From contig JAQTTU010000001.1 in assembly GCA_028710605.1 (NCBI GenBank), forward strand, positions 434,001 through 498,000: a stretch of DNA of 64,000 nt. The letters are read 5' to 3'. The notes below the pieces were generated by a model, which saw only the letters and a list, made by a program, of their open reading frames with translations, did not search any database and had not been told where the DNA came from. The DNA comes from Sideroxydans sp. (GTDB taxonomy: Bacteria > Pseudomonadota > Gammaproteobacteria > Burkholderiales > Gallionellaceae). Numbering within the stretch: position 1 is the first letter of the stretch; each line of letters opens with the position of its first letter. This document shows, piece by piece, positions 2,071 through 16,272 of this stretch. The position numbers were made by a program, and so were the translations under genes.

Positions 2071-2139
2071 TTCTTATCACCTCATGTTTCGCCAACATCC
2101 AATGAACCAATGTCGGTTCTCTTTTTTTGGAGAGAAATT
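2071..2139 (+). promoter_or_regulatory. Conserved leader repeat, copy A
   Basis: First of eight related leaders in the mobile element. It reads TTATCACCTCATG, then CCAACATCC, then the hairpin GAACCAATGTCGGTTC, a T-rich spacer, the ribosome site GGAGAG, and ATG. The outer segment TTCGCCAA can pair with TTGGAGAG across one mismatch, covering the ribosome site. It serves the gene at 2140. Confidence 0.75.
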
Positions 2140-2565
2140 ATGAGGTGCGTAATTAGTGAGAGAAAGCAGTTATCAAGGATGGATGCTGCAGTATCCCTCG
2201 GAAAAATGAAGGGCTTTATTGGGCATTCACAACTCGCCGCAATCGGAAAAGTTTGCTATTCGGAGGAACGCCAGTTCATGTACGCCAAGCTGGTCGAACT
2301 GGCAAATATCGTCGAGACAATGCCGAAGACCTACGAAACAGATGGCCAGGATGACCCAGATGTTTATTTGCATTATTTCTTGGGCGGTATGAATTGGCAT
2401 ATTACCGAACGCGACATGATGCCCGAGCAGCTGCAAGCCTTTGGGCGTGCAGATCTCGGATACGGTGGAGAGCTGGGCTACATCTCGATTGTAGAAATCA
2501 CAAAAGCAGGTGCAGAGATCGACCTGCATTGGCAAAAGAAACCATTGAGCCAATGCGCCGATTAA
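2140..2565 (+). CDS. DUF2958-like conserved element protein
   Basis: A 141-residue soluble protein whose C-terminal half (HYFLGGMNWHITERDM, FGRADLGYGGELGYISIVEI, EIDLHWQKKPL) resembles the DUF2958 family. That family is common on plasmids and integrative elements and has no established function. The start at 2140 follows leader copy A with GGAGAG at the right spacing; an in-frame upstream ATG would put coding sequence through the leader hairpin. It is followed closely by two small membrane proteins and a terminator, so the three form one leader-driven unit. Family assignment is from memory of motif shape and is moderate. Confidence 0.65.
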   Translation: MRCVISERKQLSRMDAAVSLGKMKGFIGHSQLAAIGKVCYSEERQFMYAKLVELANIVETMPKTYETDGQDDPDVYLHYFLGGMNWHITERDMMPEQLQAFGRADLGYGGELGYISIVEITKAGAEIDLHWQKKPLSQCAD

Positions 2566-2582
2566 ATATTCAGGAGAAGAAA

Positions 2583-2840
2583 ATGATGAAGCAATTGCTG
2601 ATATTTGGAAAATTCATCGGGCATTTATTGATGGGTGGAGGCATGTTCGCCGCACTTCTGCTTTTTGGAGGTTCGCTAAATATGCTTGTTCATTGGGCTG
2701 GGCCAATCATCGGGGATGAGACGTTTTTTGACTTGATGAGAAATGTCGAGAAGTTCATACTGTACGCTGATGTTGTGTTCACCGTTTGGTGGACGGTATA
2801 TTCGACCTACAAGGCAATTAAGGAGATGCATCATGAATAA
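2583..2840 (+). CDS. Small two-helix membrane protein
   Basis: An 85-residue protein starting MMKQLLIFGKFIGHLLMGGG, with membrane segments at about residues 12-34 and 58-76. AGGAGAAG precedes the ATG. Its stop overlaps the start of the next gene (ATGAATAA), so the two are probably co-translated. Unknown function; the preceding leader-controlled gene is 17 bases upstream. Confidence 0.65.
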   Translation: MMKQLLIFGKFIGHLLMGGGMFAALLLFGGSLNMLVHWAGPIIGDETFFDLMRNVEKFILYADVVFTVWWTVYSTYKAIKEMHHE

Positions 2841-2997
2841 TATCGGACGTGCATTAAAGATTTTCGGTGCCGGAATCGCTATTGGAGTAAAAGAAACCCC
2901 ACGAGGCTTCTTCGCACCAGCAGTGGTTATCTGGAACAGCTTGGTCGGTACGACAGATATGCTTACTAAGCAAAAGAACGGCACAAAACACGCGTAG
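2833..2997 (+). CDS. Small 54-residue protein
   Basis: Starts MNNIGRALKIFGAGIAIG and overlaps the previous stop. GGAGATG lies just upstream. The protein has a glycine/alanine-rich hydrophobic stretch (residues 9-19) and a Phe/Trp-containing segment, so it may sit at a membrane. It is the last gene before the terminator at 3016. Unrecognised. Confidence 0.5.
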   Translation: MNNIGRALKIFGAGIAIGVKETPRGFFAPAVVIWNSLVGTTDMLTKQKNGTKHA

Positions 2998-3015
2998 CCT
3001 GAAGCGATTCAACTA

Positions 3016-3046
3016 AACCCTCGTTCCTTTGGAGCGAGGGTTTTTT
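3016..3046 (+). terminator. Rho-independent terminator
   Basis: ACCCTCG and CGAGGGT pair around a short loop and are followed by six T. It ends the leader A unit. Confidence 0.85.
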
Positions 3047-3066
3047 CATGCCCACAAGATTTGAGG

Positions 3067-3300
3067 TTAGGAGTTGGCCAGGCTGTAGTATTTCTCGATC
3101 GCGTTCAAATGCTGCTCACCATAAATGCCTTTTTCGACAAAACTGGTGAAGTCGATAGTCACGGCTTTCGAATAAATCATAAATCCATAAATCTCCGCGA
3201 GCGCCGTTGCATCCGGCGAAAGAGAGTTGCCGTGCTGCGGAGTGGAGCGGACGCATTCATTGACCGCTTCCTCCACTCCCTTAATGGTAAGTATCTGCAT
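3067..3300 (-). CDS. DUF3717-like protein
   Basis: A 77-residue protein, MQILTIKGVEEAVNECVR, followed by SLSPDATALAEIYGFMIYS. This spacing of an E-A-x-N element and an ALA-x-Y-x-x-MI element resembles the DUF3717 family of small beta/gammaproteobacterial element proteins. It starts directly after the stop of the membrane protein upstream (TAG ATG), so it is in the same operon. No known function. Confidence 0.6.
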   Translation of the reverse strand: MQILTIKGVEEAVNECVRSTPQHGNSLSPDATALAEIYGFMIYSKAVTIDFTSFVEKGIYGEQHLNAIEKYYSLANS

Positions 3301-3582
3301 CTAGTCCTCTCTCACCAAAATCAATTGTTTCAAACGCACGGCCATTGCCACCCATGTCACGTTTCCAGTCACAAGCAGGATGCCCGCATAGAAGCTGAAC
3401 CATTGACCAAGCGATGGGTAGTAATAGAGGTTCCACACCCCCCAAACAGTAAAGAACAGTGAGGTTGGCCAATATACGCCGCGCACCTCACGGTCTTTCC
3501 ACAGCTGCCATGCGTTGCGCCAGGTGAACCATGCGCCCACGAGTTCGATCATTCCGTTAATGAGGTCGGGGGTAATCATCAT
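3301..3582 (-). CDS. Phage/element-type membrane protein
   Basis: A 93-residue protein with about three hydrophobic segments (residues 5-20, 38-55 and 62-84), rich in Trp and Tyr (VYWPTSLFFTVWGVWNLYYY). The ATG at 3582 is chosen because GGAGG lies 8 bases upstream; an in-frame ATG five codons earlier would overlap that site. I recall similar proteins in phages and integrative elements, with no established role. It sits downstream of the methyltransferase group. Confidence 0.6.
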   Translation of the reverse strand: MMITPDLINGMIELVGAWFTWRNAWQLWKDREVRGVYWPTSLFFTVWGVWNLYYYPSLGQWFSFYAGILLVTGNVTWVAMAVRLKQLILVRED

Positions 3583-3599
3583 GCGTTCAACCTCCATTG

Positions 3600-3911
3600 T
3601 TAATCTGACGCATGCCGCTCGCCGCTTTTGTTTGTATGAACACCAAATTTATGTCCTACGCTTCCGCGCCCCGTAGGGTAGCGATTCTCGATGTAACAAG
3701 CCTTGCAATAACCCGAGAGTCCATCTCCCTTCCCCTCGTTCGAGTAAAAAAACTCTGTGTCCGCTGGCCAGTATTCATTGCACTTGTTGCAGCGCTTCTC
3801 TAGGTCTCCATCTTCGCTGAATCGGTACACCTGCCTCTTCAAGCGAAGTGCTTTAAGGCTTTCAGTCGGATGCGCCGTTTTGATCTGCTCCTCATGAATA
3901 CGCATGCTCAT
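3600..3911 (-). CDS. Zinc-ribbon protein
   Basis: A 103-residue protein with CNKCNEYWPADTEFF followed by GYCKACYIENR. The paired CxxC motifs (about residues 41-44 and 68-71) form a zinc ribbon like those in small phage proteins and some HNH-associated proteins, but no HNH residues follow. The start at 3911 overlaps the stop of the cytosine methyltransferase as ATGA, so it is coupled to it. The C-terminus is Gly/Lys/His-rich. It may bind nucleic acid or assist the methyltransferase; that is inference. Confidence 0.7.
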   Translation of the reverse strand: MSMRIHEEQIKTAHPTESLKALRLKRQVYRFSEDGDLEKRCNKCNEYWPADTEFFYSNEGKGDGLSGYCKACYIENRYPTGRGSVGHKFGVHTNKSGERHASD

Positions 3912-5446
3912 TCCGCCCTCTGCGCAACACTCAATGCCACCGCCACCGGTCGCACCCAGATCGGTGTCAGCGCCAGGGACATCGTGCTTTCGGTGCGCGC
4001 CAGTATCAGCGTGCGGAACATCTCGCTGGCGATGGCTTCGGCGGCATGCGGCGGTACGGCGTTGCCGATGCGTTCGCGCCATGCCTGGTCGCTGAGTCCG
4101 TCGAGTTCCAGTTGCTCTTCCGGTTCGATCAGGCTTTGCAACGCGGCCAGCTCCAATGTGGTAAATGGCCGGTGCCATGTGCCATCCATCGAGCGGATGT
4201 GCGCGATCAGCTTTTCGTCGGCAGCTGGCATGCGAGGATCCGCGACTGACCATCTGCCGTTGTCCAGACAGGCCGAGCTGCTGACCGCCACCACGTTGCT
4301 GTTTCTGTCCCAATGGATGACTCGATACAAGTTGTAGTGACGATTAGCCGATGGAGACATGCGAGGGTCGGCGATGGTGTACTTGCCGCCGCCCGGCGCG
4401 GATTGACCGCTCACTGCGCCCATCGGCTCGTCGAACTTGAGCACGCCGTACTGGCTGTATTCCATTCCGCTGTAGCGCGGATCAGCTACTGAGAATGCAC
4501 CGTTCAATGGCAAACTGCGCCCAGCCACCACGCCGGTATGCTCATTCCAATCCCGCACGCCCAGAACAGTTCCGCGCATCTCCGGACAGATCAGGAAGTC
4601 GCGCAGCGCGCCATCCTCCACCGCCAGCTTGTTCAAACTACGCCAGTCGCTTCCAGCCTCCACGAACGCGAGACGCACCCATGTCTTCCACTGCAAGGCG
4701 GGGACGCGGTGCATAGGGCCACCGCGAACGTCGCCCGGCATCGGCATGCGGCTCAGCACTGAGCCAACCGATTGCAGTCGCTTTTTTGGTGGCTCATAAA
4801 GGAAGTGGGGCACTTTGTCGATGTGGCGGGCAACCAGCAGAAAACGCTTGCGGCTCTGCGCCAGCCCGCCGATCTCGCCGCAGTCGTGGGCGGTCTCGGC
4901 TACGGCATAACCATAGTAACGGAGCAAGTCCACGATCTGATCCAACAAGTGACGACCACGGTTAGCGATGCGCGGCACGTTTTCGAACAGGAGCAAATCT
5001 GCCGGATCGTCCTGGTATGCCTCCAGCGCCAACCAGATTCCGCGCAGCGTGAGGCGGTTCAGAGCCTGATACTTTTCAGTCTTACTCTTTCCCTCTGAAA
5101 GTAACCCAGAGAAGCCCTTGCATGGTGCAGAGAGAAACCAAATGTCCGGGCGCTCGTTATTCAGCGCGCGGCGAATGTCGGCAGGTGTCGCTTCGCGCCA
5201 TCCTGCTGGCGGCTCTTTGCCGTGGAAGGCGATGTATTGCGAACGATCGAACAGATCCATCACCCGCCCGTTGAGGCCGCCCAGCTTATGAAAATCGTTG
5301 ATTCCCGCTGCATCGACATCGATGCCGCCGATGCAGCGCGACTTGGATTGAACATTACCTACGCGCGCCTTGCCATTGTTGAAGCCCTTGGCACCGCCAC
5401 CAAGGCCACAGAATAAGTGGGCGTGTTTGAATTCCATGAAGCTCAT
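3908..5446 (-). CDS. DNA (cytosine-5) methyltransferase
   Basis: A 512-residue C5 methyltransferase. Motifs in order: FCGLGGGAKGF (motif I, SAM binding, about residue 12), SAPCKGFS (motif IV with the catalytic Pro-Cys, near 107), LLFENVPRI (motif VI), AQSRKRFLLVA (motif VIII) and RIGNAVPP (motif X, near 465). Between VIII and X there is a long target-recognition region holding three copies of an ADPR(M/Y)-ending unit with a Y-x-V-x-x-(F/W)-D element. Motif IV has Lys where Gln is usual. No restriction gene is adjacent, so it is probably an orphan modification enzyme protecting the element. ATGA overlaps on both sides couple it to the DUF5131 gene upstream and the zinc-ribbon gene downstream. 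Confidence 0.92.
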   Translation of the reverse strand: MSFMEFKHAHLFCGLGGGAKGFNNGKARVGNVQSKSRCIGGIDVDAAGINDFHKLGGLNGRVMDLFDRSQYIAFHGKEPPAGWREATPADIRRALNNERPDIWFLSAPCKGFSGLLSEGKSKTEKYQALNRLTLRGIWLALEAYQDDPADLLLFENVPRIANRGRHLLDQIVDLLRYYGYAVAETAHDCGEIGGLAQSRKRFLLVARHIDKVPHFLYEPPKKRLQSVGSVLSRMPMPGDVRGGPMHRVPALQWKTWVRLAFVEAGSDWRSLNKLAVEDGALRDFLICPEMRGTVLGVRDWNEHTGVVAGRSLPLNGAFSVADPRYSGMEYSQYGVLKFDEPMGAVSGQSAPGGGKYTIADPRMSPSANRHYNLYRVIHWDRNSNVVAVSSSACLDNGRWSVADPRMPAADEKLIAHIRSMDGTWHRPFTTLELAALQSLIEPEEQLELDGLSDQAWRERIGNAVPPHAAEAIASEMFRTLILARTESTMSLALTPIWVRPVAVALSVAQRAE

Positions 5447-6366
5447 AGCGATCCCCTCGATTCCGGATAACCGTCATGCAACAAGCCATCCAATAGGCGA
5501 CCCGCGTTCTTTACGCCGATACGCATAGAAAGTGATCCATCGCCCCATGAATTACATTGCACCCCCTTTGGATCGTGCTGATTCAAAACCCATCCCGTGC
5601 CACCTCCAAACCATTCACCCCACTGCTTAAAATGAAAAGGAGTCCCAGCTGCTTTGCATTGGGTGTACAGACTTCTTACCCAGTCAGGGTGCAACGGGCG
5701 CGCACGCACGCCGGATTCACCCTCGCAGATAACCCAGTTCAGCAGCCCAGAATCACATTCGGCGCGGCTATCACATCCACTCAGCATGTCGGCAGGAATG
5801 TTGTAGTTCGGGTGCTCGATGCGCCGAAGGTCGATTGCCCCAAGCATCGGCCCAATGCTCAAACCTCGCACAGCTGCCGGAATGCGCAATAGCTTCCAAA
5901 TATCCCTGTCGGCCTCTTCCTGATTGCACACCGTAATGAGCAGCCAGACATTCGCGTAGCCACAACCCCAGTCGTCTGGAAGCATCTTGGAGGCATTCCC
6001 AATACGTTTGGTGACTAGCAGCCAGTCGAGGTGCGGCGTGGCCCGTATCAGGCTCCAAAGTCTCTCGCGCTGGCCATGAGGGGCTTCGTTGTCGAACACG
6101 TCCGCAACGGAAGCGCAAAACACGCGCTGACGATGCCCATGGGTACGGAAAAACTGTTCGTGATCGCGTTCCCACTTTAACGGTGCCGACCAATATTTTT
6201 CACTGCGCAACATACGTGGCGCGCCAGCTCCCCAATTCTGCCCTTGGCTAAAACGCTTATTGCGCGCCTCGGCGTAACAGTTGTCACAGCCGGGGCCGAT
6301 CTTTGTACAACCTTCCCATGGATTGAAAGTCGAATCAGTCCACGTAATCCCCGATATTTTCGCCAT
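5443..6366 (-). CDS. DUF5131 family (phage Gp37/Gp68-like) protein
   Basis: A 307-residue protein starting MAKISGITWTDSTFNPWEGC, with a cysteine cluster CTKIGPGCDNCYAEA at about residues 20-34. The ITWTDxTFNPxxGC start and C-x7-C-x2-C spacing are the hallmark of the DUF5131/Gp37-Gp68 family. Its members are common in phages and islands and look like iron-sulfur or radical-SAM-type proteins; the biochemical function is not established. It is the first gene of an ATGA-coupled operon with the C5 methyltransferase and has a strong promoter upstream. Confidence 0.88.
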   Translation of the reverse strand: MAKISGITWTDSTFNPWEGCTKIGPGCDNCYAEARNKRFSQGQNWGAGAPRMLRSEKYWSAPLKWERDHEQFFRTHGHRQRVFCASVADVFDNEAPHGQRERLWSLIRATPHLDWLLVTKRIGNASKMLPDDWGCGYANVWLLITVCNQEEADRDIWKLLRIPAAVRGLSIGPMLGAIDLRRIEHPNYNIPADMLSGCDSRAECDSGLLNWVICEGESGVRARPLHPDWVRSLYTQCKAAGTPFHFKQWGEWFGGGTGWVLNQHDPKGVQCNSWGDGSLSMRIGVKNAGRLLDGLLHDGYPESRGSL

Positions 6367-6396
6367 TGCTATACACCGCGTAGTTATCCTGTTGCA

Positions 6397-6424
6397 AGTA
6401 TATATAAAGTGCCCCTTCTGTCAA
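6397..6424 (-). promoter_or_regulatory. Strong sigma-70 promoter of the DUF5131-methyltransferase operon
   Basis: Minus strand: perfect -35 TTGACA (6419-6424), 16-base spacer, -10 TATACT (6397-6402). The ATG is about 30 bases downstream. It is the best promoter match in the element. Confidence 0.8.
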
Positions 6425-6450
6425 CGAGCAAATCCCTCAAATAACCGTCG

Positions 6451-6513
6451 TTTTTATCACCCCATGCTTTGCCAATACGCAGTGAAGCCAGGTTCTTTCA
6501 TGGAGGAAGAATT
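6451..6513 (+). promoter_or_regulatory. Conserved leader repeat, copy B (degenerate)
   Basis: Reads TTTTTATCACCCCATG, then GCCAATACGCAGTGAA, then a decayed centre (GCCAGGTTC instead of ACCAATGTCGGTTC) and GGAGGAAGA. The central hairpin is lost while both flanks are kept. It lies upstream of the 30-residue ORF. Confidence 0.55.
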
Positions 6514-6542
6514 AGTGCTTCGCACTTTAAAGGGAGTTGATC

Positions 6543-6635
6543 ATGACAATCGCATTCGCAATGTGTGTAATGGCAGGAGTATTCCTGTACTTCGGTATGG
6601 TGCGTCCAGTATTGGGGCGTGCTGATTTGATCTGA
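6543..6635 (+). CDS. 30-residue single-helix membrane peptide
   Basis: MTIAFAMCVMAGVFLYFG followed by a basic tail (MVRPVLGRADLI). One hydrophobic helix fills most of the protein. GGGAG lies 7 bases before the ATG, and a strong terminator follows 24 bases after the stop, so the short gene is framed as a complete transcription unit behind leader copy B. A second frame starting at ATG 6500 also stays open for 41 codons but reads basic and irregular. Confidence 0.45.
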   Translation: MTIAFAMCVMAGVFLYFGMVRPVLGRADLI

Positions 6636-6659
6636 TCGCACGATCAGGCTTTAAACAAC

Positions 6660-6696
6660 AGCCCACGACTCTCTGAGCGTGGGCTGCTTTATTTTT
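6660..6696 (+). terminator. Rho-independent terminator
   Basis: AGCCCACG (6660-6667) and CGTGGGCT (6678-6685) pair and are followed by a T-rich tail that runs directly into leader copy C. Confidence 0.8.
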
Positions 6697-6757
6697 ATCA
6701 CCTCATGTTTCTCCAACACCCAGTGAACCAATGTCGGTTCTCTTTGTGGAGAAGAAC
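6691..6757 (+). promoter_or_regulatory. Conserved leader repeat, copy C
   Basis: TTTTTATCACCTCATG, then TTTCTCCAACACCCAGT, the hairpin GAACCAATGTCGGTTC, a spacer, and GTGGAGAA before the ATG at 6758. TTCTCC upstream is the exact complement of GGAGAA, so the outer stem would hide the ribosome site. Confidence 0.8.
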
Positions 6758-7285
6758 ATGAACGGGCAGCAAAAAATCAGCTGGAAAAAAGTGGGAAGTG
6801 TCTATGTAGCGGAATTTTTCTTAAACGGCATTTCGATTGCAGCCGAGATTTCACCGGATCGCACATCGAGGGCTGTTGCAAGTCAAATCGGAAGGGCAAA
6901 CCACGATTCATTTGGGGCAGCGTTGCGTTTACCCGATGGCCGTTGGTTTCACCCTGCAGTATCCCGAGTTGATCGCGCACGCGTTTACATGAATGCCGGC
7001 ATGCACAAAGATCGCGCACTGGCTAATGCGTGGATGGAAGAGAACGAAGCAGGAATGCGTTTTCTGGAAGTGGAAAATGGAACGCCGCATCTGCGCCTCC
7101 TGACTGTCAAAGCTCAGCGCGGCATCATCATGGAGAAAAAGGAGATCGGCGGACTTGATATGCCAATTCCCCTCTTTGGCGGCCCATGTGATGCATATAG
7201 CGAGCTGGCCAATGAAATGGCTGAAGAAACAGCCGCAAAGGTTCTCAAAGCCATCCGTGACCTTGTTGGCCACAAAGCGGCTTAA
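6758..7285 (+). CDS. Hypothetical leader-controlled protein
   Basis: A 175-residue soluble protein with no signal sequence and no family I recognise. The start at 6758 follows leader copy C with GGAGAAG spaced 4-9 bases. Its N-terminal third looks like a beta sheet (SWKKVGSVYVAEFFLNGISI) and the C-terminus is helical and acidic (SELANEMAEETAAKVLKAI). It is followed by a strong two-way terminator. Its control by the same leader as the antirestriction and methyltransferase genes suggests a role in early establishment of the element; inference only. Confidence 0.7.
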   Translation: MNGQQKISWKKVGSVYVAEFFLNGISIAAEISPDRTSRAVASQIGRANHDSFGAALRLPDGRWFHPAVSRVDRARVYMNAGMHKDRALANAWMEENEAGMRFLEVENGTPHLRLLTVKAQRGIIMEKKEIGGLDMPIPLFGGPCDAYSELANEMAEETAAKVLKAIRDLVGHKAA

Positions 7286-7297
7286 AAGCAGTATCGC

Positions 7298-7328
7298 AAC
7301 CGTCCCACCTCACTGAGGTGGGACGGTT
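7298..7328. terminator. Two-way terminator between convergent units
   Basis: AACCGTCCCACCTCA and TGAGGTGGGACGGTT form a near-perfect 15-bp stem between the + gene ending at 7285 and the minus-strand small-gene operon. Confidence 0.85.
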
Positions 7329-7329
7329 T

Positions 7330-7694
7330 CTTATTGTCGCCGCCCAGCTTCCGCGCTATTTCGATATTGGCACCACGCTTGAAAAAAACCGAACAGCCCG
7401 CCACGATAAAACCGTGGCTCTGGTTTGCCTTAACACTCCCTCCGCGATAAACCTGCTCCGGTCGCTCGAAACGGGCGTTGCCCGAAGTAAACAGGCTGCG
7501 CCTGATTCTTGCTGGCTTGCGCCAGATATACGCGCTGCGCGAGGCCTTAACCAGCTGGCGCTGGGTTAAGCGGCTTTGCCGCCAAAACCGCACCGGCTGC
7601 GCCGTCCAACTTGGTGGTAATGCGCAAATATTTATAGGGAAGACTACTGCTGACCGTGGTAAAACTGACAAGATATGAATTTGAATTTCCCCGA
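7330..7694 (-). ncRNA. Candidate structured RNA or long structured 3' UTR
   Basis: About 365 bases with no convincing gene. On the minus strand it carries serial short GC hairpins: CGGC-GCA-GCCG, GCGGC-AAA-GCCGC, TTAACC...GGTTAA, CTGGC-GCAA-GCCAG (a GNRA tetraloop), CAGGC-GCA-GCCTG, CGGGC-AAC-GCCCG and CCACG-N7-CGTGG. A terminator closes it at 7298-7328. A TTG-started frame (7698 down to 7282) is open, but its translation is Arg-rich with no ribosome site. The stretch follows directly after the last gene of a nine-gene operon, so it could be a 3' UTR RNA, a separate ncRNA, or a DNA structure. No known RNA family recognised. Confidence 0.4.
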
Positions 7695-8042
7695 TCAATT
7701 CGCCGCCTCGGCCCCAAGAATATTGCAGGACAACGGGGAACCAGCCACCAGTTTTTTAACCTGCCCATGAATTTTTTGCCTTGTGGATGAACAGTAACCT
7801 TTCTTTTGCAGGTGCATTGTAAATGCTCGTTCCACCTGTAAATTGCCGTGGGCATAAAAGAGACTGTAAGCCTGCCCATCAAATAACAGCATATCTCCAT
7901 CGACGGAGAGACTTAGCGACGGGACGCGGCTTGCCATCACCCGAGTTCTTAAAACTTTGCGGGATTGGCGTTGCGCAGCGGTATCGCGCATTTCAAAAAT
8001 TTTGCGTTGCTCATATTCCGCATAATTTTTGATACTCTCCAT
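7695..8042 (-). CDS. Hypothetical protein, last gene of small-gene operon
   Basis: 115 residues, MESIKNYAEYEQRKIFEMRD. The start at 8042 has GGAAGG 4-9 bases upstream; the frame is open further up without a good site. The N-terminus is charged and helical, and the middle has a short beta-like part (SLSLSVDGDMLLFDG). Basic Lys/Arg content suggests nucleic acid contact. Unrecognised. Confidence 0.6.
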   Translation of the reverse strand: MESIKNYAEYEQRKIFEMRDTAAQRQSRKVLRTRVMASRVPSLSLSVDGDMLLFDGQAYSLFYAHGNLQVERAFTMHLQKKGYCSSTRQKIHGQVKKLVAGSPLSCNILGAEAAN

Positions 8043-8058
8043 TTCGCCTTCCTTTCCC

Positions 8059-8307
8059 TTACTGCTTAACCCAGCACCAGTTATTTGCACCACGCAGAGC
8101 GATATTGCGAGCTTTCTTGTGTTTCTGAAGCATGCGATCCGCCACACGCATCGACACATCCACACCAGACAGGTTCAGGATGCCGAGCTTGGTTACTTGC
8201 TCGACAAGCTGGGAAGCACGGAACCCATTTTCGCCAACATGCGATTTCATCCAACTTTCCAACGCATTTTCTGAAGCTGGTGACACTTCAATGCCCATGA
8301 CGATCAT
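8059..8307 (-). CDS. Hypothetical protein
   Basis: 82 residues, MIVMGIEVSPASENALESWM. The central region (FRASQLVEQVTKLGI ... MRVADRMLQKHKKARNIAL) has the look of a small winged-helix or helix-turn-helix fold, but no family is recognised. AGGAAAGGA lies upstream of the ATG. Part of the minus-strand small-gene operon. Confidence 0.6.
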   Translation of the reverse strand: MIVMGIEVSPASENALESWMKSHVGENGFRASQLVEQVTKLGILNLSGVDVSMRVADRMLQKHKKARNIALRGANNWCWVKQ

Positions 8308-9860: not shown

Positions 9861-10103
9861 TTAAATCCAACGAAGGTACGGCAAGCACGAAAACCAGCGC
9901 CGTTCTAGCTTATGCTGCCGCTCTATCTCTTCCTGGTAATCTTCATCAGAAAACGTTGAATCGAATTCTTCATCGTCCGGTCTGTATGGCAGGCTTTCAA
10001 TTGGGTGATAACGATGCCCCCGCACACTACACACTTGCCGACCAAGCCAGCGAACAAATGCAACACCAAGTCTTGTCACTGGATCATTCCGAGTTGTCAC
10101 CAT
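9861..10103 (-). CDS. Hypothetical protein, first gene of the small-gene operon
   Basis: 80 residues, MVTTRNDPVTRLGVAFVRWL, with an acidic middle (RPDDEEFDSTFSDEDYQEEI) and a Trp/Arg tail. AAGGGCGG lies upstream of the ATG, and a promoter candidate (TTGCAA-16-GATAAT) is about 45 bases further up. Unrecognised. Confidence 0.6.
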   Translation of the reverse strand: MVTTRNDPVTRLGVAFVRWLGRQVCSVRGHRYHPIESLPYRPDDEEFDSTFSDEDYQEEIERQHKLERRWFSCLPYLRWI

Positions 10104-10145
10104 GTTCCGCCCTTCATGTTATAGATACGTGCAACGGCATTACTA

Positions 10146-10173
10146 ATTATCCATTGATCGACATAACTTGCAA
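10146..10173 (-). promoter_or_regulatory. Candidate promoter of the small-gene operon
   Basis: Minus strand -35 TTGCAA (10168-10173), 16-base spacer, -10 GATAAT (10146-10151), upstream of the gene starting at 10103. Confidence 0.45.
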
Positions 10174-10262
10174 GTTTTTATTGGAAATTCCCACTCTGAT
10201 TTGTGGTCAAGCTGAAATAATTTGAGGGAAATCCTTTGGGGGGCGCAGCAATTAGCGGGCAT

Positions 10263-10298
10263 GAAAAATCCCTGGCCACCATAGGTGGCCAGGGATTT
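10263..10298 (-). terminator. Terminator of the DUF4942 methyltransferase cassette
   Basis: AAATCCCTGGCCACC and GGTGGCCAGGGATTT form a perfect 15-bp stem with a 3-base loop and a T-run on the minus strand. Confidence 0.9.
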
Positions 10299-10311
10299 GG
10301 TTGTTGCATTC

Positions 10312-10343
10312 TACGTTGAAACGTTACTACGTTGAAACGTTAC
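10312..10343. repeat. Two perfect tandem copies of a 16-bp unit
   Basis: TACGTTGAAACGTTAC occurs at 10312-10327 and 10328-10343. Each unit holds the palindrome AACGTT. The second copy contains the TAA stop of the methyltransferase gene. Confidence 0.9.
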
Positions 10344-12079
10344 GCTGCCTCCAACAGCAGGTGCTCTTGCTGTTTCGATTGCAGCAAGAAGTCCACGTTG
10401 ATGCCGTGGCGCTCCAGAACTGCCGTAATGGCCACATCCATAGATTCATGGGCTTTGGTCTTACGCTCATCATCGCAACCCGTCAGATGGCTCAGCGGAT
10501 TGTCCCAGTAGTTGCGGATACCCTTCTGCACTTCGACTCGGATCTCTTTATCGAATTTCTCGGCATTGTCGTACTGCAGCCAGAAGGCATCGCTCACGCG
10601 TGCTTCTTCAGGCGGCAACCATTTACGATGCCGTCCGACCAGCCGATTCAGCCTGTCCACCAACTTTTTGTCGCGGGCAAAAAAATGAATTGTGCCAGCC
10701 CCGGGATAGAACCGAACATCAAAGTACGAACTGCTCACACGACCACCCGTCCGCAGATCCCGATAATGATGATCAAAAACATACTCCAAACTGATCGCAG
10801 GCTGGTGCTTGCCGTCCAGCATGGCAAACACCTTGTCGAAATCACGAAGCAGCTGCATGGACTCATACTGCAGGTTATTCGCATAGCCTGAACGACCTGG
10901 CAGTATGAAGCGCGTAGTCTTAATCCTCATCCCCGCCGTGCGGTGCTTATCGTTCGACTTCCAACCCTTGTAAAACACCGTGTTGTCAGAGTGGTAGCGC
11001 GTAATCAGATCAAACACATCACAAGCCATGTCCAGCTGAATCTTGCCTTGGCTATTCACGATCCCACACAGGAAGCCGTAGATTGTCTGTACCGTGAATT
11101 CAAGCTGTTTGATTTGCTCGAATTCACTCTCAACACGTTTTTGTGCAGCGGAAGACAGCTTGGATGTCACATTGGCAGAGCGTAGGATCCCGCTCCACGC
11201 ACGATCCTTGAGATCATCGTAGCGCTTCCCAATCGTATTGCGAACGTAATCCACAGAAGTATCACCTGCAGCCTCACGATCAGCGTGATCCCCACTCCTG
11301 ACAGCCATCGTTTCACCAAGCAAACGAGAGTAGTATTCCGCCCTCGCTTCTTTGAGGACCGCTTCACGCATCGCCCGGACAGCCGCGTTGAACGCCGCTA
11401 CCGAATTCTCAACTAGCGAGTTCGGCAATGCGAGTTCCGCCGCTTCCCGGTAGTTGTCAGAAAGATCCGCTTCAGTCTTCGAATCGCGCTTCAGTTCGTC
11501 CAGTATCGGGCCGATGATGTCTTCACTCTCATTGGCTTGCTTGCGCAAATACACCAACGCCACATCAACCTGCGTTTTACGTTTGGCTTCTTCCACTGAG
11601 AATGCACCCTCAATGAATTCTACCTCGCCATGTTGCTCAATCAATCTCACGAGATGTTGCCGCTCCGCCGAAAACGGATTGCGAATCGTTTCCGCATTGA
11701 GAATGGCGCTAATCTCACCATCCCAAAGAATGTCCCAAGCCTTCAGAACATGCTTTGTACCAACAGCAAATGGCGGATTCATGATGATGTGCGAGTAGAT
11801 CGCCCCGCTGGTGAACGTCATGAAGTCGAGACCTACAACCTTCAGCCCTTTGCTCTGAAGTGTTGCGTGCCTGGTGATGTCGATTTCGATGCAGTCTGGC
11901 TTGAACTGCTTGCTGCGCCACGAATCTACATGTGGGTTAGCGTCTGCCAGATCGCCGTTCCCAGCCTCTGGATCGAGCACGCGTTTGAAGTCGTGATTCT
12001 TGAACTTCTTCCATGCGCGACGGGCCAAATCGGGCGGGGTTGGATAAAACTGTAAGTCATTCATTTGTTGCTGTTGCAT
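10340..12079 (-). CDS. Adenine-specific DNA methyltransferase with DUF4942 C-terminal domain
   Basis: 579 residues. N-terminal class I SAM methyltransferase: YPTPPDLARRAW, motif I LDPEAGNGDLA (near residue 40) and motif IV IMNPPF (near 105), typical of N6-adenine enzymes. The C-terminal half (ITRYHSDNTVFYKGWKSNDK, FDKVFAMLDGK) matches the DUF4942 domain often fused to such methyltransferases on integrative elements. The ATG at 12079 is chosen because GGAG lies 6 bases upstream; an in-frame TTG further up lies inside leader copy D. Likely role: modification of incoming element DNA to escape host restriction (inference). It forms a leader-gene-terminator cassette. Confidence 0.85.
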   Translation of the reverse strand: MQQQQMNDLQFYPTPPDLARRAWKKFKNHDFKRVLDPEAGNGDLADANPHVDSWRSKQFKPDCIEIDITRHATLQSKGLKVVGLDFMTFTSGAIYSHIIMNPPFAVGTKHVLKAWDILWDGEISAILNAETIRNPFSAERQHLVRLIEQHGEVEFIEGAFSVEEAKRKTQVDVALVYLRKQANESEDIIGPILDELKRDSKTEADLSDNYREAAELALPNSLVENSVAAFNAAVRAMREAVLKEARAEYYSRLLGETMAVRSGDHADREAAGDTSVDYVRNTIGKRYDDLKDRAWSGILRSANVTSKLSSAAQKRVESEFEQIKQLEFTVQTIYGFLCGIVNSQGKIQLDMACDVFDLITRYHSDNTVFYKGWKSNDKHRTAGMRIKTTRFILPGRSGYANNLQYESMQLLRDFDKVFAMLDGKHQPAISLEYVFDHHYRDLRTGGRVSSSYFDVRFYPGAGTIHFFARDKKLVDRLNRLVGRHRKWLPPEEARVSDAFWLQYDNAEKFDKEIRVEVQKGIRNYWDNPLSHLTGCDDERKTKAHESMDVAITAVLERHGINVDFLLQSKQQEHLLLEAA

Positions 12080-12148
12080 ACAAATCTCCATGGTGAACAA
12101 ACCGACATTGGTTCACCGGGTATTGGAGGAACACGCACCAATAAAAAA
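12080..12148 (-). promoter_or_regulatory. Conserved leader repeat, copy D
   Basis: Minus strand: TTTTTTTATTGG, TTCCTCCAATACCC, then GGTGAACC-AATGTC-GGTT with TTCACC restoring a longer stem, then ATGGAG. CTCCA pairs with TGGAG, so the ribosome site is again the 3' arm of the outer stem. Confidence 0.8.
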
Positions 12149-12175
12149 ACCCTCGATCTCATAGAGAAAGAGGGC
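12143..12175 (-). terminator. Terminator of the cassette at 12206
   Basis: Minus strand CCCTC...GAGGG stem with an inner CTC/GAG pair, followed by seven T that lead into copy D. Confidence 0.65.
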
Positions 12176-12205
12176 TTGGTTACTACATGATACTGAAATA
12201 TCGCA

Positions 12206-12868
12206 TTATTGAATTGCAATGGAACGGTCTCCATTGCTGGAGAATTCATATCCATTCATCGCAATATTTTCATCTACCGCCTCATTGCTGACAAAAAAGT
12301 CGTATTCCTTTTCAAGGCTACGATATATCCAGCGCATGAAGTTGCGAAGCACTTCTTCCACTTGTTCGTGAACTTCGATGCTGACGTAGCGTTGATTTCC
12401 GTGACGGTCATCAGTAATTTCCACTTCAATGTTGGTACAGTTTTCATGCTGGTAGTGCCCACTGTGTTTGACGTTGGCCGTGATGCCATAGAAATTCTTG
12501 CGTTGAATCGCTTGAAGTTCGTCGGCGATGCGATGTAAATCTGCATCTTGCGATGGGTATTCGCGGATTTCTTTCGCTGCACCCCTGACATAACTGTAAC
12601 GTCCCTCGAAGTGCGCACCGTCCCCCTGGCTGCTGAAACCCGAGAACCCGATATTGATACCATCGTAGCTGGTTGTGCCATTGCGATACGACACCTTGCG
12701 GTTGCGGATGTCGATACCGAGGATGTCGGCGATATTTGCCACATCTTCATAAACGCTCTCATACCACTGGTCAGAAGCTGATGTTTCGCGATACCAAGCT
12801 CGCGCCTTTTCTTTTGCCGCCTCTGATAGCTCGGAAAAATTAAATACAGGTTTGCATAATGTTCTCAT
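12206..12868 (-). CDS. Conserved element protein (sometimes named antitoxin of a stability system)
   Basis: 220 residues. N-terminal FNFSELSEAAKEKARAWYRE, then INIGFSGFSSQGDGAHFEG near residue 73. I recall proteins with this pattern on plasmids and phages under names such as antitoxin of toxin-antitoxin stability system; the evidence for that name is unknown to me and no toxin gene is adjacent. The start at 12868 follows leader copy E with GGAGAGAG 3-10 bases upstream. The C-terminal half is charged and probably helical. It forms its own leader-gene-terminator cassette. Confidence 0.65.
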   Translation of the reverse strand: MRTLCKPVFNFSELSEAAKEKARAWYRETSASDQWYESVYEDVANIADILGIDIRNRKVSYRNGTTSYDGINIGFSGFSSQGDGAHFEGRYSYVRGAAKEIREYPSQDADLHRIADELQAIQRKNFYGITANVKHSGHYQHENCTNIEVEITDDRHGNQRYVSIEVHEQVEEVLRNFMRWIYRSLEKEYDFFVSNEAVDENIAMNGYEFSSNGDRSIAIQ

Positions 12869-12930
12869 GACTCTCTCCAAGGAAAAAACCGACATGGTTC
12901 AGAGAGTATTGGATGAACATCTACACGTAA
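12869..12930 (-). promoter_or_regulatory. Conserved leader repeat, copy E
   Basis: Minus strand: CATCCAATACTCTCT, then GAACCATGTCGGTT and TTGGAGAGAG before ATG. Here the ribosome site reads GAGAG and the upstream arm has changed to CTCTC, keeping the pairing. Confidence 0.8.
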
Positions 12931-12960
12931 AAGCCCCGGCAGCATAGCTGCGCGGGGCTT
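12927..12960 (-). terminator. Terminator of the ardC cassette
   Basis: AAGCCCCG (minus) and CGGGGCTT pair around a loop with an inner GCAGC/GCTGC stem, followed by TTTAC. Confidence 0.8.
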
Positions 12961-13038
12961 GGGTACTTCTTTGATGATTTGGGATATAATCGTGCTGCGG
13001 ATTCCGGCTCCGAGGTCTTGCACCAAAGCCGGATCAGC

Positions 13039-13923
13039 TTACGCTGCCATCGCTACGCTTTCCTCCCCCTCTTGTTCCTGCTCCACCTTCCCGATCAGGA
13101 ATTCAGATGCCTTTCGCGCAGCGCTTGAAGCTGTGAAAATTGCCTTCTTGTCGCCCTTTAGCACCTTGATCCAACTGGCAATGTAGGAAGCGTGTTGCAG
13201 CTGGCCATCAACCCCACAATGAGCGCATGAGAATGCCGCGCCCAGTTCGGCGATCAGTTCCTCAAAAGCGTATGCACTGTCACCGAAGCGTCCACTAAAG
13301 TCCCGAGCCAAGCGACTTTTGTGGCCAGTCCAGTGGGTCAATTCATGCAGTGCCACTGAGTAGTAATCGGGAATCGACTTGAACTCCTGCTTATTCGGCA
13401 TGTGGATTTCATCAATCGACGGGACGAAGCATGCGCGATTGCTTCCATGCACAACACTGGCCTGCGCCAAAAGCCGTTCTGCTTCCACATTGTCCGTAAA
13501 CTGGTCAATGAGCGGTTTAGGCTGAACGCTGTATTTCTCAGGCAAATTGTCGATCTGCAGGGAATTGAACACGGTGAAGGTGCGCAACAGAGGGATGGTC
13601 TTCTCTGTGGCCTCACCATCGCCGGTCGCGTTCACGTCTTTCACTTTGAAGGGCTTGAATAGCACAATGCGCGTGCCATGCTCACCCTTGCGCACATTAC
13701 CGCCAACGTCTGCGGCCTGTTTGAATGTCATCCAGAGCGACGAAGCGAAAGGTGTCATGGCCAACAACACGGTATTGATGCCGGAATATTCCCGACCAGT
13801 TATTGCGTTGCGGGGATTACCGCAACTTGACCATGGTTTAACCCATGGGGCAGTTCCGACTTCGAGTGCGGCAACGATCTTGTCTGTGATTTCTTGATAC
13901 GCATCATATTTCTGGTCTTTCAT
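13039..13923 (-). CDS. ardC: ArdC-like antirestriction protein / zincin-like metallopeptidase
   Basis: 294 residues. N-terminal ssDNA-binding ArdC domain (YQEITDKIVAALEVGTAPWV, NAITGREYSGINTVLL, FKQAADVGGNVRKGEHGT) and C-terminal zincin-like peptidase domain with ALHELTHWTGH (HExxH-type, near residue 200) and EELIAELGAAF (third ligand Glu). ArdC of plasmid pSa binds single-stranded DNA and protects incoming DNA from type I and II restriction. The start at 13923 follows leader copy F with GGAGATC. Upstream of it lie three more leader cassettes, so it is one of a series. High confidence in family; the peptidase activity is not proven in general. Confidence 0.9.
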   Translation of the reverse strand: MKDQKYDAYQEITDKIVAALEVGTAPWVKPWSSCGNPRNAITGREYSGINTVLLAMTPFASSLWMTFKQAADVGGNVRKGEHGTRIVLFKPFKVKDVNATGDGEATEKTIPLLRTFTVFNSLQIDNLPEKYSVQPKPLIDQFTDNVEAERLLAQASVVHGSNRACFVPSIDEIHMPNKQEFKSIPDYYSVALHELTHWTGHKSRLARDFSGRFGDSAYAFEELIAELGAAFSCAHCGVDGQLQHASYIASWIKVLKGDKKAIFTASSAARKASEFLIGKVEQEQEGEESVAMAA

Positions 13924-13990
13924 GGTGATCTCCAATACTTAGAGAACCGACATTGGTTCACTGGGTATTGGAGAAACAGCAGCCAATAAA
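13924..13990 (-). promoter_or_regulatory. Conserved leader repeat, copy F
   Basis: Minus strand: TTTTTTATTGG, TTTCTCCAATACCCAGT, GAACCAATGTCGGTTC, then GTATTGGAGA before ATG. TCTCCAATAC and GTATTGGAGA are perfect 10-base complements, the longest outer stem of the family. Confidence 0.85.
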
Positions 13991-14020
13991 AAACCCCGCC
14001 AGTCATGGACTGGCGGGGTT
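13987..14020 (-). terminator. Terminator of the cassette at 14038
   Basis: AACCCCGCCAGTC (13992-14004) and GACTGGCGGGGTT (14008-14020) form a perfect 13-bp stem with a 3-base loop and T-run on the minus strand. Confidence 0.9.
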
Positions 14021-14037
14021 TACTTGCGCGACGCGTA

Positions 14038-14256
14038 TTATTGATCGCTACCCCAGGAGTGCAGGTAGAAGCTAATTCCCTCATCCTGTATCCCTGCTGA
14101 AAACAATCTATCCCGAGCCGCCTCAGCATCGCCCGAAAAAAATAGCCGATGGGCATCTGATACTGCCGTCTCGTTGGCTATTCGAGCCACTTCCATTCGT
14201 GCCGCTCGTTGCTCTGGTGAGTGGTACGCGACATATCGCTCTTGTTCTGGACTCAT
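14038..14256 (-). CDS. Small hypothetical protein
   Basis: 72 residues, MSPEQERYVAYHSPEQRAAR, largely helical and charged, ending FYLHSWGSDQ. AAAGGGGA precedes the ATG. A seven-codon open frame (ATG at 14276) spans this ribosome site and ends TGA overlapping the start codon, so translation may be coupled. It belongs to the leader G cassette. Unrecognised. Confidence 0.6.
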   Translation of the reverse strand: MSPEQERYVAYHSPEQRAARMEVARIANETAVSDAHRLFFSGDAEAARDRLFSAGIQDEGISFYLHSWGSDQ

Positions 14257-14276
14257 AGCAATCCCCTTTCATTCAT
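14253..14276 (-). other. Seven-codon upstream open frame (MNERGLL) in leader G
   Basis: ATG at 14276 stands where other leaders place their gene start. The frame crosses the AAAGGGGA site and stops TGA overlapping the ATG of the 72-residue gene. It may couple or attenuate translation; alternatively it is the worn start of a lost gene. Confidence 0.4.
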
Positions 14277-14340
14277 GGTTTTCATTAAAAATAATTGACA
14301 TTGGTTCAATGAGTATTGGAGGAACAGCAGGCAATAAAAA
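14277..14340 (-). promoter_or_regulatory. Conserved leader repeat, copy G (centre decayed)
   Basis: Minus strand: TTTTTATTG, TTCCTCCAATACTCATT, GAACCAATGTC, then AATT in place of GGTTC and no GGAG arm. The 5' half is intact and the 3' half is lost. Confidence 0.65.
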
Positions 14341-14366
14341 TCCCTGCCAGTCATGGACTGGCGGGG
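14335..14366 (-). terminator. Terminator of the IS-interrupted cassette
   Basis: Stem CCGCCAGTC/GACTGGC with the same loop sequence (CCAGTCCATGACTGG) as the terminator at 13987, followed by ATTTTTATTG. The shared loop suggests the two cassette ends share ancestry. Confidence 0.75.
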
Positions 14367-14540
14367 GAGGTTGCGTTTCAAATGCAATTGCCGTATTTCT
14401 GGTAAAGGCCGTCAAGGTAGGCCACTTGCTTGTCAGTCAGATTCGCAAGCTCGCCGCCCATCCGTCCATCCCGGTCAAATTGTGTGCTTTTGGTTTCCAG
14501 ACTTCTAACAAATTTGGCATCCTTTTCAGGAATAGCATCA

Positions 14541-14551
14541 ATGGCTGCCAC
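14541..14551. repeat. Target-site duplication, left copy (11 bp)
   Basis: ATGGCTGCCAC, matching 16055-16065 exactly on the far side of the IS. Confidence 0.9.
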
Positions 14552-16054
14552 TCATGGCACTCGGATAAGCCAAAACACCCATAAAAACAGCGGGCTGAAC
14601 ACTTCAGAATGGTAAGCTTTTGTTACGACACGAAAGCCACCCATCACAGGAGGTCAGCCCAAATGAAGAATACCAAAGTTGCACGGATTCGGCAGAAAGT
14701 TGCGATGTTGAAGCAGCAGTTTATACAAAGCGATTCCGGCTTATTCGACCAAGCACTCGATGAACATGAGATTGAAGCTGTCATGCAGAAGTTGGACGAA
14801 CCGTACCGTGAACGCATCTATTCCCCGTTGGATACATTGCGCCTATTCGTGGGGCAAGTCCTATCGGCAGACCGCGCCTGCCAAGACGTAGTGGGTCGCC
14901 GCTTATCCGAACGCGTCGCACAAGGCCAAACGCCGAGCGCGCTCAACACCAGCGCCTACTGCGAAGCACGCCAGCGTTTGCCGACCAGCTTGCCAGTGAC
15001 ACTGAGCTTGCTGATCGGCGCACGGCTGGAAGCATTGACCCCCACGGCGTGGCGTTGGCATGGGCGCTGCGTCAAACTGTTCGACGGTACAACGGTTACC
15101 ATGCCCGATACGCCGAGCAACCAGGAAACCTACCCGCAAAGCCGTGAACAACAGCCGGGGCTGGGCTTTCCCATTGCTCGTATTGGCGCGCTCATCGGCC
15201 TGTCCAGCGGCGCGATGCTGGGCTACCAAGTGTCTGCCTGCAAAGGCAAGGGGACGGGAGAGCAAAGTTTGCTGGCAAACCTGCTGGATCAGCTCAACAA
15301 CGAGGATGTATTGCTGGCCGATGCGTTGCTGGCGACTTGGTGGATCATCCATGGCGCAACAAGCCGAGGGGTGGATATAGTCATGTCCCAGCATGGCGTG
15401 CGCATCACCGACTTTGCGCAAGGCGAGCGGTTGGGCAAACAAGACCATCTGGTGCAATGGCCGCGCCCGCTGAAGCCGAAAGCGATGAGTGCGGAAGAAT
15501 ACGCGACTTACCCGGAATTCATCACGATGCGAGAAGTGAAGGTCGATGGGCGCATACTGGTGACGACATTGCTTGATCCGCTGCAAGTCCCGGTGCAATC
15601 GCTGGGTGCGCTGTACAAGATGCGCTGGAATATCGAAGTGGATTTCCGCACAATCAAAGCGACGCTGGAGATGGATGTGCTGCGTTGCAAGTCGCAGCCG
15701 ATGGTGGACAAGGAGATTGCGGTATATATCTTGGCCTACAATCTGGTGCGCTGGGCGATGGCGAAAGCGGCATTACTTGCGGACATCCTGCCGAGGACGT
15801 TGAGTTTTGCCGGAGCCAAGCGGCTGCTGGGTTCATTCGCCGATCAGCTTCGCCGAACCACGGGAGATCAAGTTCGCACTTTGATTGCCACCGTTACGGC
15901 CTGTATGGCGACACTGCGGTTACAGCAGCGGCCTGACCGAATCGAACCGCGCGCGAAGAAACGAAGACCCAAAAAGTTGCCGTTGTTAACCGTGCCGCGA
16001 CAAGTCGCGCGAGACCTCATTCTTGCTCGGAGAGCGCTTATCCGAGTGCCATGA
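14552..16054 (+). mobile_element. IS4-family insertion sequence, 1503 bp
   Basis: Ends are 19-bp inverted repeats, TCATGGCACTCGGATAAGC at 14552-14570 and its complement at 16036-16054. An 11-bp direct target duplication flanks them. The transposase stop codon TGA is formed by the last three bases of the right repeat. Target duplication length and DDE motif fit the IS4 family. Both ends are intact, so it is probably active or recently so. Confidence 0.93.
14663..16054 (+). CDS. IS4-family DDE transposase
   Basis: 463 residues from the ATG at 14663, chosen because AGGAGGT lies 8 bases upstream; the frame is open 18 codons further up without a site. DDE centre: KLFDGTTVTMPDT (first Asp, near residue 154), LLADALLATW (second Asp, near 223), and YKMRWNIEVDFRTIK, the Y-x2-R-x3-E-x6-K signature of IS4 transposases. 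Length matches the family. No frameshift, so the enzyme should be functional. Confidence 0.93.
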   Translation: MKNTKVARIRQKVAMLKQQFIQSDSGLFDQALDEHEIEAVMQKLDEPYRERIYSPLDTLRLFVGQVLSADRACQDVVGRRLSERVAQGQTPSALNTSAYCEARQRLPTSLPVTLSLLIGARLEALTPTAWRWHGRCVKLFDGTTVTMPDTPSNQETYPQSREQQPGLGFPIARIGALIGLSSGAMLGYQVSACKGKGTGEQSLLANLLDQLNNEDVLLADALLATWWIIHGATSRGVDIVMSQHGVRITDFAQGERLGKQDHLVQWPRPLKPKAMSAEEYATYPEFITMREVKVDGRILVTTLLDPLQVPVQSLGALYKMRWNIEVDFRTIKATLEMDVLRCKSQPMVDKEIAVYILAYNLVRWAMAKAALLADILPRTLSFAGAKRLLGSFADQLRRTTGDQVRTLIATVTACMATLRLQQRPDRIEPRAKKRRPKKLPLLTVPRQVARDLILARRALIRVP

Positions 16055-16065
16055 ATGGCTGCCAC
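16055..16065. repeat. Target-site duplication, right copy (11 bp)
   Basis: ATGGCTGCCAC directly after the right inverted repeat. Confidence 0.9.
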
Positions 16066-16206
16066 GAGTGAGGATGCCTTGATTTTGCGCTCATCAATTT
16101 GAAGCAGAATTTGCGCTTCCAACCTGTTCCAAGCTGCTTCCCGATCTGCTTCGCGTTGCTCAGGCGTTTTGTTCCTGATGGCATCGAAGTCAATTTTGAA
16201 TGCCAT

Positions 16207-16272
16207 GACATTACTCCCGAAATAGAACCGATATTGGTTCATCTGGTATTGGTGGGGCATGAGGTGATAAAA
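16207..16272 (-). promoter_or_regulatory. Conserved leader repeat, copy H
   Basis: Minus strand: TTTTTATCACCTCATG, CACCAATACCAGAT, GAACCAATATCGGTTC, spacer, GGGAG, ATG at 16206. The central stem is perfect; the outer pairing is weak (CCC with GGG). Confidence 0.75.

Follow-up and report, generated by a model that had tools for sequence, protein, structure and literature searches.

The repeat and the element that carries it

The 64,000-nucleotide stretch of DNA analyzed here (the window; contig JAQTTU010000001.1 of a Sideroxydans sp. assembly, positions 434,001 to 498,000, or G000:C15:434001-498000 in our handles for genomes and contigs) contains eight related leaders, A to H. They lie at the places and on the strands given by an earlier model reading of the letters alone (the sequence-only reading). 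Window positions 1-24230 are the right end of a 79,707-base-pair (bp) element that is present as two identical tandem units (G000:C15:298772-458230). Four more copies lie outside the window, at element positions 6959, 7485, 8749 and 53984 (element position = window position + 55,522), each on the minus strand, so that three plus-strand and five minus-strand copies in the window and four further minus-strand copies make 12 per unit. The modular cassettes described earlier are supported; the array is larger than had been thought, and the element is duplicated in tandem. The window copies are:

2071..2120, plus strand: leader A, first of the array; core and exact palindrome (2104-2119)
6451..6500, plus strand: leader B; core retained, GAAGCCAGGTTC type in place of the palindrome
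6692..6741, plus strand: leader C; core and exact palindrome (6725-6740)
12098..12147, minus strand: leader D; core and palindrome with one change
12885..12933, minus strand: leader E; palindrome shorter by one base
13943..13992, minus strand: leader F; core and exact palindrome
14291..14340, minus strand: leader G; right arm of the palindrome broken
16224..16273, minus strand: leader H; core and palindrome with one change

What unites the copies is a rigid core, TTTTTAT-N7-TGTTY-N2-CCAATW-N5-TGAA, in which near-identical blocks alternate with variable bases. The consensus derives from 31 non-redundant copies, 12 of them from this element, that were left when near-identical sequences were removed from 36 usable copies collected with an nhmmer profile. 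Two chance-like matches with partial cores were excluded, L031 (from an archaeal metagenome-assembled genome, MAG) by hand and L036 (from IMG/VR) by the E-value limit, and the later-found copies L101-5317 and L098-8934 stand outside the 31 (L numbers are our handles for loci). From TTTTTAT to TGAA the core spans about 36 bp, within a conserved unit of about 50 bp, and it is free of gaps in nearly all 31 copies; three have a one-base insertion or deletion, at or to the right of CCAAT. In register, TTTAT is found in 29 of the 31, TGTT in 25, and CCAAT and TGAA in 29 each, and invariant throughout are TTA of the T-run, TG of TGTT, CCAA, one A of TGAA and a C two bases further on. The sequence-only reading had named CTCCAATACCC as a conserved block. 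This was not borne out, as only CCAAT is conserved (CCAAC replacing it in two of the 31 copies), and the two bases 5' of it read CT, AA, AG, CA, AT, CG and others. These figures should be interpreted with some caution, since the alignment was anchored on CCAA and the genome-scan pattern contained CCAAY and TGAACCAATRTYGGTT, which favors those blocks; the conservation that is independent of the procedure is that of TTTTTAT and TGTT only.

The core starts where the upstream terminator ends. Its T-rich beginning had been described as the tail of that terminator; a terminator-like stem lies 5' of 17 of the 31 copies (87 of 620 mononucleotide shuffles, or 14%, with a simple finder that misses imperfect stems). 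The remaining copies keep the T-run without a detected stem, as TTTTTAT in B and H and TTCTTAT in A, and TTAT is retained in 30 of 31. Between the core and the ribosome site the sequence is variable. Three kinds of sequence follow the core, namely the palindrome GAACCAATGTCGGTTC or a variant of it (26 copies: AACC-N6-GGTT in 23, N5 in two, broken in one), a GAAGCGAGGTTCTTTC-like type (two copies) and a GAAGCAAAACTTTAGTGG type (three copies); since three different sequences follow one core, the TGAA boundary is common to all of them. The hairpin once claimed for all eight window leaders is thus exact in A, C and F, is altered as listed above in D, E, G and H, and is missing from B. A hairpin pattern with up to three mismatches matched the window 11 times, compared with 1.5 +/- 1.4 times in shuffles; six leader sites, of which four were counted once on each strand, account for ten of these matches, and the eleventh is an unrelated site at 27161. 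In the whole element AACC-N6-GGTT occurs 11 times, nine of them within leaders, and spacers of 2-5 and 7-9 bases give 0-3 occurrences. The repeat stands in sense orientation 27-49 nucleotides ahead of a start codon in 25 of the 26 A-type copies (median distance 33 over these 25, counted from the end of the core); in the other, L033, the script found no start codon, and this copy is absent from the 25-copy tests below.

We take the carrier to be an integrative and conjugative element, judging from its integrase, its attachment repeat in a tRNA gene, its coupling protein and its transfer genes. The two features at its right end are:

22903..23964, plus strand: tyrosine integrase at the element end
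24186..24230, unstranded: 45-bp direct repeat (att core), right end of the element, inside a tRNA-Lys gene (24186-24261, minus strand)

The 45-bp repeat is found at the outer ends and at the junction of the units, and the two units are either a real tandem array or the assembly of a circular form beside an integrated copy. Also encoded are a TraG/TraD-type coupling protein, a topoisomerase-domain protein, the F-type transfer proteins TraG_N, TraC, TraK and TraN, and a ParM/PRTRC-D-like backbone protein whose match lies below the NCBIfam cut-off. A 503-amino-acid protein adjoining the coupling protein gave no Pfam match, and in NCBIfam it matched only cas3_HD, at a score below the cut-off; that it is a MobH-type relaxase is a guess.

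The repeat is narrowly distributed. Scanning 84,980 genomes with the pattern yielded 10 stretches: eight came from MAGs labelled Gallionella(ceae) or Nitrosomonadales, one from a Melainabacteria-labelled MAG, and one was the chance-like partial core of the archaeal MAG. With at most one mismatch the core occurs in six of 158 genomes of the host family, G000 included, and in G000 only within an order-level sample of 399 genomes. The host, of the family Gallionellaceae, is a relative of iron-oxidizing bacteria. In IMG/VR a 19-base exact search gave no match and a degenerate search one chance-like match, and leader C had no blastn match among 72,556 plasmids, consistent with the earlier statement that no sequence identity to IncN plasmids was to be claimed. 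Searching with leader F and its terminator produced three short phage matches, 26 to 37 bases long (best E value 0.007). Within the host genome, half of the core with up to two mismatches matched 24 times in the two units and eight times elsewhere, all eight with two mismatches, compared with four in a reversed control. Apart from such background-level matches the half core stays within the element, and a host sigma-factor regulon was rejected on these counts.

Cassette genes and their joints

The genes and related features of the array are the following:

2140..2565, plus strand: cassette A gene, 141 amino acids; weak DUF2958 match, below the Pfam cut-off
to 2997, plus strand: small open reading frames (ORFs) of cassette A, then a terminator-like site at 3026-3050
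6543-6635, plus strand: small ORF after leader B, read by eye
6758..7285, plus strand: cassette C gene, 175 amino acids; no family in Pfam, NCBIfam or PHROGs
10340..12079, minus strand: cassette D gene, 579 amino acids; DUF4942 (1e-47), MTS methyltransferase match below the Pfam cut-off
12206..12868, minus strand: cassette E gene, 220 amino acids; PHROG 5162, unknown function (2e-39)
13039..13923, minus strand: cassette F gene, ardC-like anti-restriction gene, 294 amino acids; ArdcN (9e-36), MPTase-PolyVal (5e-46)
14038..14256, minus strand: cassette G gene, 72 amino acids; no family in Pfam or PHROGs
14542..16064, unstranded: insertion sequence with a DDE_Tnp_1 transposase ORF (14663-16054, plus strand) and 29-nucleotide inverted ends, 93% complementary

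Genes follow the window copies, as the proposed order of leader, gene and terminator implies, and terminators stand between several of the cassettes. The ArdC-like assignment was upheld by both domains of the cassette F product. The gene D product, previously called a methyltransferase, is a DUF4942 protein, and the methyltransferase call derives from the sub-threshold MTS match and from motifs seen by eye. Among 20 proteins of the cassette region, three exceeded the curated Pfam cut-offs (ArdC, DUF4942 and RadC). The cassette protein behind copy 53984 was found in two of the 158 family genomes, both of them repeat-bearing. The insertion sequence splits the gene behind leader H, and both parts of that gene are still recognizable.

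Comparison of loci reveals a mosaic (genes are named here by the first residues of their products). The cassette order is ardC, MFFEK, MKTEL, MKKQND in L024 and MFFEK, MKAEL, MKKQND, other genes and a D-type gene in L098, whereas here it is ardC, E, D. Leader D and copy L026-7929 are 95% identical over 22 nucleotides of terminator and 20% identical downstream, and leader D likewise shares the terminator, not the gene, with L024-4918. The reverse is seen between L026-7116 and L024-6324, which are 95% identical downstream, where the gene is the same, and 41% identical upstream, where the terminators differ. Leaders F and G have a common terminator and different genes. Copies 6959 and 7485 (genes at element 6636-6908 and 7045-7434) agree in their leader, in the ribosome site and as far as the opening codons of the genes (MCNLAKHN), beyond which they diverge. 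The copy pairs in this comparison are not independent of one another, and the P values of its correlations are nominal and carry no weight here. Since identity is lost within the repeat in both directions, terminator and repeat together form the joint of the mosaic. A single cassette with the repeat (L101:5317-5615) lies beside a different integrase, among proteins about 27-36% alike to transfer-region proteins of this element; this setting suggests that the cassette was transferred from one element type to another.

These joints raise the possibility that the repeat serves mainly for cassette exchange, by homologous or site-specific recombination. The palindrome would then be read as short arms around a 6-bp spacer, and the element does encode a second tyrosine-recombinase-like protein, of 220 amino acids, whose Phage_integrase match falls just below the Pfam cut-off. 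However, a pure recombination site has no need of the sense placement at a narrow distance from start codons, ordinary homologous exchange between repeats would yield the same joints, and the small recombinase occurs in one of six repeat-bearing genomes, so that we rejected it as a partner of the repeat. We consider recombination quite unlikely as the main function.

Tests of RNA structure

The sequence-only reading had proposed that the repeat acts in the transcript, the 5' arm of a hairpin pairing with the ribosome site and changing with it in leaders C, D, E and F. More broadly, an RNA leader that folds or binds a protein, with or without such pairing, could control translation. All four pairs can indeed be written. 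The arm of E (CTCTC), however, lies downstream of CCAAT, unlike those of C, D and F, and the four pairs are consequently not homologous. Neither did the compensatory change survive testing, as arms paired no better with their own ribosome sites than with those of other copies. Over 25 copies the mean duplex energy was -6.33 for matched pairs and -6.36 +/- 0.23 for mispaired ones (permutation fraction as low, 0.56), and the longest perfect run averaged 4.36 bases matched and 4.56 mispaired. The fraction was 0.89 when the 14 homologues were tested by themselves and 0.067, near-suggestive, when only the 11 copies from this element were used. Individual runs reach 10 bases in F, the only one so long, 7 in C and 6 in copy 8749. 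A second candidate arm, at GGTTCTC, gave a fraction of 0.33. Behind its own leader a ribosome site was predicted to be slightly less accessible than behind swapped leaders for transcripts that start at +11 (0.417 and 0.461), and equally accessible for those that start at -14 (0.369 and 0.366); no significance was computed.

The palindrome itself was examined in an alignment of 22 rows, which omits three copies with insertions or deletions, five without a palindrome and one identical over 53 nucleotides. No palindrome pair showed a double change among the 22 copies, and the covariation score was the same as in all 500 shuffles. Since the arms are near-invariant, this result is uninformative on pairing rather than contrary to it. 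The central AAT is as invariant as the arms, which fits sequence recognition. GAACC and GGTTC are able to pair in 96.4% of the alignment cells, and a GTTY/GAAC alternative stem, also without double changes, was discarded. Six folds of four leaders gave one strong result, F with its upstream part (z -4.9); the other five, including F trimmed so as to begin at TGAA, lay between -0.5 and -0.9. No Rfam family matched the repeat, and only a tRNA reaches the gathering score in the window.

A further consideration is that in many copies the T-run is the tail of the preceding terminator and would seldom be present in the RNA. The rigid spacing of T-run, CCAAT and TGAA is therefore hard to explain for an RNA, whereas a protein complex on DNA would readily account for it. 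In favor of a transcribed repeat, a promoter-like module lies 5' of it in A, H and two homologues. On balance we regard an RNA leader as unlikely. The absence of significant covariation in homologues is the outcome that the sequence-only reading had itself named as telling against its proposal, and the RNA mechanism put forward for the repeat is not supported.

As a separate observation, the C-type copies (L098 (L026) 358-480 and 957-1080; L097 1676 and 1025) continue into a longer conserved leader of about 110 nucleotides, with possible nested hairpins before the start codon, which could be a structured RNA in its own right.

The repeat as a candidate promoter and operator

We hypothesize that the repeat is an element-specific promoter and operator module that places ardC and the other variable genes in one regulon, and consider this, with modest confidence, the probable explanation. 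The rigid core, its sense orientation at a narrow distance from the start codon, its confinement to the element, the joints inside it and the lack of RNA covariation all argue in this direction. The core is promoter-sized at about 36 bp. Moreover, because it begins where the terminator ends, an independently transcribed cassette needs a promoter within roughly 50 bases. Confinement of the half core to the element makes a host sigma factor an unlikely reader and an element-encoded factor a more likely one. According to our hypothesis, RNA polymerase would recognize the core jointly with an element-specific factor, transcription would start near TGAA, and a regulator encoded by the element would bind the palindrome, then situated at the start site. 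The cassette genes, ardC among them, would be under single control, probably silent in the resident element and briefly switched on at transfer, in analogy to establishment genes under ArdK or under the p576 (pLS20-family) repressor.

Several observations weigh against this hypothesis. A scan with the sigma-70 consensus found no site, and no recognizable -35 and -10 boxes, in any window leader (10 sites in the region, 14.3 +/- 3.7 expected), so that the promoter would have to be unusual or activator-dependent. Upstream of the four copies that come first in their arrays (A, H, L024-2598 and L097-3796) lies a further conserved module that looks like a promoter, and from there transcription might enter the repeat. 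Two candidate regulators were found in only some of the repeat-bearing genomes: the KORA-family protein is found in one of seven repeat-bearing genomes, this one, and homologues of an XRE/MqsA-like protein in three of six (G034 and G199 included), the assemblies being mostly incomplete. Finally, autoregulation would predict a copy of the repeat at the regulator's own gene, and none was found at the starts of the KORA, XRE/MqsA-like or 174-amino-acid helix-turn-helix (HTH) genes of this element.

On these counts the KORA-family protein (element 3187-3399, Pfam 1.1e-8) is unlikely to be a repressor tied to the repeat. Two adjacent HTH proteins are encoded near element 51-52.5 kb. The first, the XRE/MqsA-like protein (51279-52028), has an HTH_3 match and weak MqsA matches (MqsA_antitoxin, E value 0.0037, below the Pfam cut-off), and the base-contacting residues of MqsA are presumably not retained in it. 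The third candidate lies in the window:

20780..21304, minus strand: HTH-like backbone protein, 174 amino acids, candidate regulator; weak match to PHROG 3949, a repressor (E value 0.0009)

This protein and the ParM/PRTRC-D-like protein each occur in three of the 158 family genomes, all three repeat-bearing. It thus marks the backbone just as the ParM-like protein does, and the association does not single it out as the regulator.

In a more specific version of the hypothesis, which we hold to be improbable as it stands, the core belongs to a dedicated promoter class whose recognition requires an activator or sigma-like factor encoded by the element, because the usual boxes are missing, and it serves at the same time as the joint for cassette swapping. 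Were this so, a captured gene would join the establishment regulon at once, the promoter doubling as a plug.

Among known systems the array functionally most resembles the ArdK regulon and the establishment regulons of the pLS20 family, by analogy, and is a sequence member of neither. In the ArdK regulon ardC, ssb and further early genes are all under a single repressor of the KorA family (PMC9723621), and CUP elements are ArdK binding sites (PMC6289460), as far as the cited portions of these sources go. In keeping with ArdK (R388, IncW) and CUP (pKM101, IncN), a short element is repeated here before ardC and other genes (leader F before ardC, and 11 further copies), which supports the idea, raised by the sequence-only reading, of regulation in the manner of CUP. 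This element, too, encodes a protein of the KORA family. The ArdK operator, as given in the part of PMC9723621 used here, is a direct repeat of TTGACA next to the -35 box. Unlike it, none of the 31 cores contains two TTGACA motifs; leader G has one, on the other strand, and two copies have TTGAC. Nor did leader C match a plasmid, and none of the six further genomes with the repeat yielded the KORA protein.

The pLS20-family comparison draws on portions of one source (PMC8708921). EGeRS1 and EGeRS2 there are conserved sequences just 5' of the ribosome site of ardC and of other, mosaic establishment operons, a placement that the repeat shares. EGeRS1-B is described in those portions as having no constitutive sigma-A promoter, a precedent for an establishment gene, and the regulator of EGeRS2 is a ribbon-helix-helix repressor. 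EGeRS1 differs in being 420-751 bp long and rich in inverted repeats, compared with about 50 bp here, and in its Bacillus hosts, which belong to a different phylum. The MqsA antitoxin operator, AACCT-N3-AGGTT (cf. PMC4894380), shares with the palindrome the AACC and GGTT half sites, and a weakly MqsA-like HTH protein is encoded here; AACC and GGTT are six bases apart in the repeat and five in that operator.

Single-strand promoters of the Frpo or ssi kind, which act on the transferred strand, likewise stand ahead of anti-restriction genes in conjugative elements. In the parts of PMC11541004 relied on here, leading-region anti-defense gene families of other elements lie on that strand. In line with such a mechanism, the repeat lies ahead of ardC, which is known as an establishment gene, on a conjugative element, and it shows no visible double-strand sigma-70 promoter. 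Yet copies occupy both strands, which speaks against a single-strand promoter for all of them, though the position of the origin of transfer (oriT) and the nicked strand were not determined. The unit is moreover short, at about 50 nucleotides, and no -35/-10 pair is recognizable in its stem. We judge this explanation very unlikely.

Establishment regulons were previously recognized in a few plasmid families (IncN/IncW ArdK and pLS20). Our results would add a compact regulon that is defined by its sequence, is represented by at least 31 non-redundant copies and resides in an integrative element of environmental Betaproteobacteria. The conserved sequence can be used to locate additional cassette genes, most of them unnamed, whose products may counteract host defenses, and the repeat illustrates how an apparent RNA hairpin may be better read as a DNA operator.

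The module upstream of the first-of-array leaders constitutes a second dispersed element. Its sequence is CTGGATTAA-N6-CATTTCCGAAATNGNTAATGGATAAC, and it includes a small palindrome, ATTTCCGAAAT, as well as direct repeats some 8 bp long. The module precedes these leaders and the ParM-like region, and looks like another promoter/operator. Its positions are:

1988-2040, plus strand: window, second dispersed element
16363-16300, minus strand: window, second dispersed element
18402-18350, minus strand: window, second dispersed element
7555 and 26519: element positions of further copies
L024:2508, L097:3877, L100:16332 and L102:2331: copies at other loci

The best sigma-70-like promoter of the region (11/12) is found at 6424-6397 (minus strand), outside all leaders, before a divergent gene at 5443-6366.

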